Assembly (NCBI GenBank): GCA_958296235.1
Contig: OY282457.1
Span: forward strand, 1,426,501 to 1,490,500
Length of the DNA: 64,000 nucleotides
Direction: 5' to 3'
From: an uncultured Candidatus Binatia bacterium
GTDB lineage: Bacteria > Desulfobacterota > Binatia > Bin18
The translations under genes were made by a program, and so were the position numbers. Positions 10,975 through 51,798 of the stretch are shown piece after piece. The notes beneath the pieces are model-generated. The model ran no database searches. It saw only the letters and a program-made list of their open reading frames with translations, and was not told where the DNA came from. Numbering within the stretch: the first letter of the stretch is position 1; every line of letters begins with the position of its first letter.

Positions 10975-11000
10975 GTAAGGGCAACCCCCTGTGGTTGCCC
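10975..11000 (+). repeat. REP palindrome, isolated copy
   Basis: GTAAGGGCAACC, a short CCCTGT loop and GGTTGCCC. It is the same palindrome found around and inside the transposase gene at 50988-51737, with one base change in the first arm. It sits in the gap between ccr and the acetyltransferase. Confidence 0.75.
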
Positions 11001-50097: not shown

Positions 50098-50260
50098 CAG
50101 GCGTTCCGGCACGGGTACGAAGCCCCTGCCCAGCCGGGGAAAACACTGACAGCGTTGGAGGGACGGGGGTATGAAATGCCACCGGCGGAGGCTGTTGGAT
50201 CATTTCATTGAGGATGAATGACTCTTGCCCGAAGAGCTTTGCCATAACCCGGAGGATATG

Positions 50261-50926
50261 ATGGCGACGATCGATCTCTACGAAGCGATGCGAACCTTAC
50301 GCGCCGTACGGCGGCTCCGCCCGGACCCTATTCCAGAAGACGTACTCTACCGGGTCCTCGAAGCCGCAACCTGGGCGCCGTCTGGCGGCAACCGCCAAGC
50401 CTGGCGCATCATTGTGGTCAAAGACCCTGCCCGCAAACAACGTCTCGGTGAGTTATATAAGCAGGTCACACTGCCCTATACCAAATCGTATATGGAGCGG
50501 TTGGCCGACGCCTCTGAGGAGGAACGGAGCCGAGCCGAGCGAACGATCCGCGCCAGCAACTACCTGGCGGAACATTTTGGCGAGTCTCCGGTGCTGTTGG
50601 TCGTGTGTTTTAACCCGGAAGGACTTGCAGTCACCGACGCGAAACTTGACAGACTGTCCGTTGTTGGCGGCGGCTCGATCTACCCCGCAGTAGAAAATCT
50701 CCTCCTTGCCTGCCGAGCCGAGGGTCTGGGGTGTGTGCTTACGACGCTTCTGTGTATGGAAGAACCGGAAGTTCGTAAACTCTTGGGGATTCCCGATCCG
50801 TGGGGGACAGCGGCGGTCGTGCCGATTGGCTATCCCGTCTTGCGCGGGCACGGGCCGATCTCGCGGCGGTCGGTAGAAGAGTTGGCGTTTGCAGACGCCT
50901 GGGGGACACCGTTTTCTCGGGAGTAG
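50261..50926 (+). CDS. Nitroreductase family protein
   Basis: 221 residues; the ATG at 50261 lies 5 bases after GGAGG and is preferred over the frame-extending TTG at 50225. It has the FMN-binding start YEAMRTLRAVRRLRPDPIPEDVL, ATWAPSGGNRQAWRIIVV, and GGGSIYPAVENLLLACRAEGLGCVLTT. The family reduces nitro groups, enones or flavins with NAD(P)H. It is adjacent to the REP/transposase locus, whose first palindrome starts 19 bases after the stop. Confidence 0.9.
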   Translation: MATIDLYEAMRTLRAVRRLRPDPIPEDVLYRVLEAATWAPSGGNRQAWRIIVVKDPARKQRLGELYKQVTLPYTKSYMERLADASEEERSRAERTIRASNYLAEHFGESPVLLVVCFNPEGLAVTDAKLDRLSVVGGGSIYPAVENLLLACRAEGLGCVLTTLLCMEEPEVRKLLGIPDPWGTAAVVPIGYPVLRGHGPISRRSVEELAFADAWGTPFSRE

Positions 50927-50945: not shown

Positions 50946-50971
50946 GTAGGGGCAGGCCCCCGTACCTGCCC
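50946..50971 (+). repeat. REP palindrome upstream of the transposase
   Basis: GTAGGGGCAGG, CCCCCGTA and CCTGCCC arms, 16 bases before the ATG of the REP-associated transposase. It is oriented like four of the other five copies of the window. Confidence 0.8.
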
Positions 50972-50987
50972 TGGTAGAAAACGCCCA

Positions 50988-51737
50988 ATGGCATACGACC
51001 CGGCCAAACATCACCGCGGCTCCATCCGTTTACACGGCTACGATTATTCGCAACCAGGAGTGTATTTTGTCACCATTTGCACACAAAACAGCGAATGTCT
51101 GTTTGGCTACATTGCGGGTGGTGAAATGGTATTGAGCGAGGCAGGTCGAATGGTACAGAGCGTATGGGATGAATTGCCTATGAGTTACTCCGGCATCGAA
51201 ACAGACGCATTCATCATCATGCCCAACCATATGCACGGGATCATCACCATCCAACCCTCCGACGTGGGCCCGTCGTCGTCCCCCGTAGGGGCAGGCCCCC
51301 GTGCCTGCCCTGATGACGCGCCACAATCGCCCGATGTAGGGGCAGGCCCCCGTGCCTGCCCGCCCCACCGTATGTCCCGAAAACAACCACCTCCCGCCGG
51401 ACACGCCCCACCTCCCGCCGGGCAACCACAGGGGGTTGCCCCTACACAGGCAATGGCGTTGCCGAATGTGGTGCATCGGTTCAAAACGTTGACCACGAAA
51501 CGATATACGGACGGCGTCAAACGCCACGGGTGGAAACCGTTTCCTGGCCGATTATGGCAACGTAACTATTGGGAACACGTTGTCCGCAACGAACGGGAAC
51601 TGCACCGGATTCGTGAATATATCTGCACGAATCCGGCAAAATGGGAATTAGACCGTTTGTACCATCCACCATCGGGACCGGCTAATAAGGTCCGGGAGCA
51701 CACGGTGGAATACGCCGTAGAGGAATGGATGGTATGA
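50988..51737 (+). CDS. REP-associated tyrosine transposase (RAYT, Y1_Tnp) with internal REP copies
   Basis: 249 residues, start MAYDPAKHHRGSIRLHGYDY. The Y1/HUH core has GVYFVTICTQN, the metal-binding His81-x-His83 in MPNHMHGIITI, and the probable catalytic Tyr194 in RNYWEHVVRNERELHRIREYICTNP. Between them, residues 96-153 form a low-complexity insert encoded by REP palindromes: VGAGPRACP appears at 100-108 and 117-125, and AGQPQGVAPT at 144-153 is read through a reversed copy. RAYTs process REPs as single-strand hairpins. Here the gene has been invaded by its own substrate without loss of frame. Confidence 0.88.
   Translation: MAYDPAKHHRGSIRLHGYDYSQPGVYFVTICTQNSECLFGYIAGGEMVLSEAGRMVQSVWDELPMSYSGIETDAFIIMPNHMHGIITIQPSDVGPSSSPVGAGPRACPDDAPQSPDVGAGPRACPPHRMSRKQPPPAGHAPPPAGQPQGVAPTQAMALPNVVHRFKTLTTKRYTDGVKRHGWKPFPGRLWQRNYWEHVVRNERELHRIREYICTNPAKWELDRLYHPPSGPANKVREHTVEYAVEEWMV
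51285..51310 (+). repeat. REP palindrome inside transposase gene, copy 1
   Basis: GTAGGGGCAGG, loop CCCCCGTG, CCTGCCC. Read in the coding frame it gives VGAGPRACP. It is in the same orientation as the flanking copies. Confidence 0.85.
51336..51361 (+). repeat. REP palindrome inside transposase gene, copy 2
   Basis: The same 26 bases as the copy at 51285, 25 bases further on and in the same coding frame, giving the second VGAGPRACP. Confidence 0.85.
51386..51420 (+). repeat. Direct repeat CACCTCCCGCCGG
   Basis: CCACCTCCCGCCGG occurs at about 51388 and again at about 51408, giving the repeated peptide PPPAG inside the transposase insert. It joins REP copy 2 with the reversed copy. Confidence 0.7.
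51420..51445 (-). repeat. REP palindrome inside transposase gene, reversed copy 3
   Basis: On the minus strand it reads GTAGGGGCAACC, CCCTGT, GGTTGCCC. The plus strand is read in frame as part of AGQPQGVAPT. It is inverted relative to copies 1 and 2, giving the head-to-head arrangement of BIME-type clusters. Confidence 0.85.
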
Positions 51738-51772
51738 ATCACCCTCCCCTCGTCGTGCGTCGCAATTCTCGT

Positions 51773-51798
51773 GTAGGGGCAACCCCCTGTGGTTGCCC
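51773..51798 (+). repeat. REP palindrome downstream of the transposase
   Basis: GTAGGGGCAACC, CCCTGT and GGTTGCCC, 36 bases after the transposase stop. With the copy at 50946 it brackets the gene. Confidence 0.85.

Follow-up and report, generated by a model that had tools for sequence, protein, structure and literature searches.

In the main text of Quentin et al. 2018 (PMC6006769), in-frame REPs located between the HuH and Y motifs are the hallmark of TnpA_Y1 subclass 2.4, which that paper equates with RAYT group 4. As characterized there, the subclass also combines a variable β3-αC loop, a WQ motif, and flanking GTAG-headed REPs, and is scattered over many phyla; all these traits are shared by the RAYT described here, which is encoded in a 64,000-nt stretch of DNA (the window) from an uncultured “Candidatus Binatia” bacterium with a single-contig 4.62-Mb genome. 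By its in-frame REPs, its loop, and its WQ motif, the window gene belongs to this kind, and the phenomenon is one already known. A preliminary description of the locus had regarded REPs within a RAYT coding region as unusual, whereas they are the rule in subclass 2.4, as published in 2018 and as our own counts below indicate. Compared with the subclass as presented in the main text of PMC6006769, the window protein has NHMH instead of NH[IFV]H in its HUH motif (its 75% identical homolog from the same genus, L046, has NHIH), YICTNP instead of YIxNNP in its Y motif (YIxNNP is also the consensus of our alignment), and an HUH-to-Y distance of ~130 residues, with three loop REPs, as opposed to a median of 88.

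Other described systems are similar in part. The REPIN (Bertels and Rainey 2011) likewise consists of two inverted REPs with their GTAG heads outward, but the window pair sits inside an ORF and its two stems differ, and in several hosts such REPs are not dispersed. Escherichia coli TnpA_REP (PDB 4ER8; subclass 2.2) shares the HUH/Tyr fold, the WQ region, and the flanking REPs, but it is a 165-aa protein without the long loop; the main text of PMC6006769 assigns intragenic REPs to subclass 2.4. The TnpA proteins of the IS200/IS605 family (ISDra2, IS608) share the Y1 HUH fold, which works on single-strand hairpins; however, these are autonomous insertion sequences, and the window protein falls far below the cutoff of the IS200 model. 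A literature search for more recent work on REPs inside RAYT genes returned only Quentin et al. 2018 (PMC6006769), in the main text of which we found no codon-level test, no asymmetry or pairing of two REP types, and no host-genome counts or near-private REPs. New here are the pairing of two REP types, A and B, the conservation of their DNA beyond the encoded peptide, and the near-private occurrence of REPs in 8 of 17 hosts.

The window RAYT gene has a nitroreductase gene (50225-50926) on one side and a cytochrome P450 gene (51869-53101) on the other, and its 249-aa product matches the Y1_Tnp and REP_Tyr_transpos profiles. The NCBIfam REP_Tyr_transpos model, which all 44 aligned homologs also match, hits it in two stretches around the loop with a score of 67.7 bits against a curated cutoff of 80, a shortfall that is probably due to the loop splitting the match. 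The HUH fold with the single catalytic Tyr of Y1 proteins is recovered by profiles, alignment, AlphaFold2, and fold matches. H81, H83, W190-Q191, and Y211 are invariant among the 44 homologs, in agreement with the preliminary description, which had the HUH motif and the tyrosine intact on either side of the insert; H197 is also invariant, and E196 and R200 are nearly so. We take the catalytic role of Y211 from what is known of the family. The AlphaFold2 model, built from 44 sequences, has a confident core (pLDDT mostly >90) and leaves approximately residues 89 to 157, between the strand 81-88 and the helix 158-180, unstructured; among solved structures, it best resembles IS200/IS605 transposases and TnpA_REP in complex with a REP hairpin (4ER8). 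The role of the WQ residues, in the region of GTAG recognition, follows the main text of Quentin et al. 2018 (PMC6006769).

Table 1. Features of the RAYT locus (window coordinates)
Feature	Positions	Strand	Basis
Flanking REP, type A (GTAGGGGCAGGCCCCCGTACCTGCCC), 16 nt ahead of the RAYT start codon	50946..50971	+	consensus scan
RAYT/TnpA_REP ORF, Y1 HUH transposase, 249 aa	50988..51737	+	frame open, intact
HUH motif MPNHMHG (H81, H83)	51219..51239	+	invariant alignment columns
Variable loop, residues 89-157, from HUH strand to next helix; unstructured in model	51252..51458	+	
First intragenic REP A copy, in frame, coding for VGAGPRACP	51285..51310	+	consensus scan
Second intragenic REP A copy, same 26 nt, offset by 51 nt (17 codons) from the first	51336..51361	+	
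Intragenic REP B, reversed (GTAGGGGCAACCCCCTGTGGTTGCCC on the - strand), encodes GQPQGVAPT	51420..51445	-	consensus scan
W190-Q191, conserved WQ motif, GTAG-recognition region	51555..51560	+	alignment
Presumed catalytic tyrosine Y211, motif YICTNP	51618..51620	+	invariant column
Flanking REP, type B, downstream of RAYT	51773..51798	+	consensus scan

A consensus scan recovered, to the base, the five REPs reported earlier in and around this gene, as well as a sixth, of type B (GTAAGGGC head), at 10975-11000 (+), outside the RAYT, where it overlaps several possible ORFs; 100 shuffles yielded no REP, against these six in the real window. Type A (GTAGGGGCAGGCCCCCGTGCCTGCCC) is represented on the + strand by the copies at 51285 and 51336 and, with one mismatch, at 50946, and type B by those at 51420 (-) and 51773 (+). 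All three internal copies are in frame, and the repeated peptide VGAGPRACP previously attributed to them is encoded by the forward ones, the reversed copy having its own peptide. The A copy at 51336 and the reversed B copy form an inverted pair with the GTAG heads outward. A tandem duplication of a 51-nt unit is a possible source of the second A copy; the 26-nt REPs are identical, but the next 25 nt are unlike.

Genome-wide pattern searches, on which the following counts rest, placed REPs of type A or B at 55 sites with up to 3 mismatches. These GTAG-headed REPs flank the RAYT gene and recur elsewhere in the genome, the dispersed copies being mostly single type B. At no more than 1 mismatch, REP A is found at four sites, and three of these are within the window RAYT gene or next to it. 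Apart from the RAYT, types A and B lie near each other at just one place, 2301274/2301314, and there is no dispersed population of the pair. The same genome also contains the remnant of a second RAYT (L126, G000:C1:3555500-3558000; RAYT-like at 3556478), whose N and C halves are in separate frames and which has an internal TAG stop; ~1.6 kb upstream of it, at 3554763 and 3554842, are REP variants whose stem is GCACCC.

In several genomes of the same genus, the RAYT is decaying or absent at the window locus, a point against the maintained-element reading proposed below. At the nitroreductase-P450 junction, the gene is intact in the window genome, the G001 copy lacks the C-terminal half, and a REP without a RAYT is found in G003 and G005. 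In G004, the only trace is a 37-nt stretch, downstream of the nitroreductase gene, that matches the beginning of the RAYT gene, with no P450 match in the stretch examined there. An intact RAYT, L046, is located 2.7 kb from the nitroreductase gene in G002 (contig record JAJDZM010000046.1, a “Candidatus Binatia” MAG), where ~80 to 100 nt around the downstream REP of the window are also conserved. The two RAYTs are less similar (75% identity) than the neighboring nitroreductases (93%), and the values of dN (0.12) and dS (0.50) for their cores indicate that the RAYT protein has been under selection. L046 lacks the second forward REP of the window copy; the net difference is 48 nt, in frame, and reflects either the gain of one forward REP in the window copy or its loss in G002.

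In all homologs, which were sampled from many phyla, the HUH strand is separated by a variable stretch from the helix that follows it. When REP-like hairpins were sought as GT[AG]G followed by a hairpin, they were found in the loops of 69 of the 77 homologs, versus 6.7 expected from shuffled loops. A single odd insertion confined to this genome is ruled out, loop REPs being common among the homologs. The same lax stem rule applied as a control to core segments gave hits in 22 of 77, in longer sequence of unmatched length, and a strict rule and a synonymous null were therefore used instead. Because the first query held REP-coded residues, the search was repeated with only the C-terminal 81 residues, which are free of REPs, and relatives with an intact HUH...W frame were kept; 15 of these 16 carry loop REPs, whereas shuffling predicts 0.4. 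Under the strict definition, REPs occupy the loop at 63 of 76 loci and the flanks at 30 of 76, with 37 loci having them in the loop only. Forward GTAG heads are distributed 46/7/0 among the codon frames; in the unused frame, TAG would terminate translation.

At the 28 loci with separate + and - copies, the + copy (A) comes first in 27, and the stems differ in 27. The usual loop layout is a forward REP A followed by a reversed, different REP B, which corresponds to a REPIN whose arms are dissimilar and whose heads point outward. Some members, e.g., L077, L095, L096, L118, and L124, have no loop REPs and represent losses. The refutation proposed in the preliminary description, namely, other RAYTs of the family having the loop without a palindrome, fails, since REPs are present in the loops of most relatives. 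In L060, L064, L094, L102, L106, L110, and L111, the reversed REP is headless (GTTG for GTAG) with its stem sequence largely kept, and the forward copy retains GTAG in L060 and L094. Such losses and GTTG copies in several hosts indicate that the element is not indispensable.

The DNA of the loop REPs is conserved beyond the peptide. Codon identity, scored at identical residues of protein pairs with <80% core identity (comparisons that are mutually nonindependent), is 0.91 for A and 0.79 for the reversed B, versus 0.51 for the rest of the gene. When the REP peptides were recoded with synonymous codons drawn from the usage of the gene itself, 4.99 of the 8 stem pairs formed in A and 4.35 in B, compared with 6.91 and 6.65 observed. 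In a set of 23 distinct stems selected by their peptide, 94% of the stem pairs form, against at most 52% with the partners slid, and stem covariation is 0.450 versus 0.205 after shuffling (0/500); the stem changes are compensatory. On a protein tree built without the loop, the stem type changes 20 times for A (shuffled mean, 31.2; minimum, 27) and 24 times for B (shuffled mean, 34.0; minimum, 27). The REP stem type tracks the protein phylogeny, on a tree that is only moderately supported.

Matching REPs were also counted in the genomes of 17 relatives. Rufibacter sediminis (G098) contains ~98 copies, many as inverted pairs ~20 nt apart. In eight other hosts (G099, G100, G105, G106, G107, G108, G110, and G113), including two isolates, Algoriphagus antarcticus and A. 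yeomjeoni, REPs are confined, or nearly so, to the RAYT gene and its immediate surroundings, the exceptions being one extra B in G107 and two weak matches in G105; the pattern also holds under looser searches. The cores of the eight RAYTs are 59 to 80% identical. The codon identity of their REPs is 0.94, versus 0.57 for the core and 0.75 for the best 18-column core window, and the VGA codons include GTA at 0.98 and GGG at 1.00. Homogenization by a genomic REP pool cannot easily act in these hosts. The conservation of REP codons where almost no other copies exist favors a maintained nucleic acid element over passive junk.

We lean, with some reserve, toward the explanation that this is a subclass 2.4 RAYT whose loop REP pair is kept as nucleic acid and is presumably cognate to the protein. 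The loop that follows the HUH strand holds the presumed cognate hairpins paired with their heads outward, A in forward and B in reversed orientation, resembling an in-frame REPIN, with A doubled in the window. Such a pair may have entered a permissive, unstructured loop and then been inherited with the gene, the hairpin and the GTAG head being held at synonymous sites. The most likely reason, we infer, would be recognition of the loop hairpins by the transposase; they could serve as a substrate held in cis, which would pair enzyme and target through transfer and through loss of dispersed REPs, and/or as a site by which the RAYT would limit its own expression. The fuller proposal is that the A/B pair is a conserved functional element, so that the gene carries its own cognate target in its coding sequence, even in a host almost free of REPs, and one DNA stretch is selected both as a linker and as a single-strand substrate or autoregulatory site; here, we see the case for and against as evenly balanced.

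The loop REPs are unlikely to be mere tolerated junk. In Quentin et al. 2018 (main text, PMC6006769), such REPs are read as products of self-insertion, in which REPs jump near their own transposase gene and those landing in an open frame within a permissive loop survive without a function. Self-insertion into a flexible loop, also put forward in the preliminary description, fits the anatomy: structure prediction leaves the loop unstructured, its length varies from 8 to 125 aa among the homologs, and two frames are used, only stop-free ones surviving. The second forward copy missing from L046 and the intragenic REPs known in other genes elsewhere are consistent with it. What conflicts with the nucleotide conservation is the word “tolerated”: REP codons are far more conserved than the core, even in hosts almost without other copies, compensatory changes preserve the hairpins, loop REPs are more regular than flanking ones, and the stem type follows the protein tree. 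Survival without function appears rather unlikely.

Alternatively, these RAYTs might have newly arrived from REP-rich donors in which loop and dispersed copies had been homogenized. Transfer of this sort could imitate part of the codon conservation and would suit the patchy distribution among phyla and the contrast between Rufibacter, rich in copies, and the other hosts, which have almost none; however, the low identity of the eight cores would call for many separate recent transfers, which makes this account improbable. The loop REPs might also act as RNA structures that slow translation or alter mRNA stability, with no recognition by the transposase needed. The window loop folds better as RNA than all 200 shuffles (z = -4.28), and the pairing is conserved beyond the peptide; but as DNA the loop also folds better than its shuffles (z = -3.38), and the GTAG head outside the stem, which pure RNA folding does not need, is kept as well. 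A purely RNA-level role is quite improbable; tuning of activity by mRNA hairpins, suggested earlier, would be one possibility, and the nucleotide-level constraint makes some nucleic acid role likely. As far as the sequence goes, this role could be that of a substrate held in cis, an autoregulatory site, or an mRNA structure. Chance palindromes arising from Gly/Ala/Pro-rich coding are refuted, since, rich as the loop is in these residues, no shuffle matches, copies are scattered in the genome, and the stem pairing exceeds that of the synonymous null.

These comparisons address how REPs and transposases stay matched in evolution and whether a RAYT has any role in a REP-less genome. If recognition of the loop pair by its own RAYT is the right reading, the target of many RAYTs would be legible within the gene, next to the protein that recognizes it, sequence would suffice to decode recognition, and apparent low-complexity linker loops would be selected DNA elements.

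Some relatives show further variations. The loops of L018, L060, L076, and L145 contain tandemly expanded REP-derived codons (VGATPRGRPDGRD repeats, VAPNDKT, GQPHES, and GQPQGVVLSIP), which suggests slippage or repeated in-frame copying. In L083, L094, and L105, REP-like peptides (VGADLCVCP, GNHKGLPQ) are found at the N terminus of the RAYT ORF as well, possibly representing upstream REPs that are read through from an early start codon.
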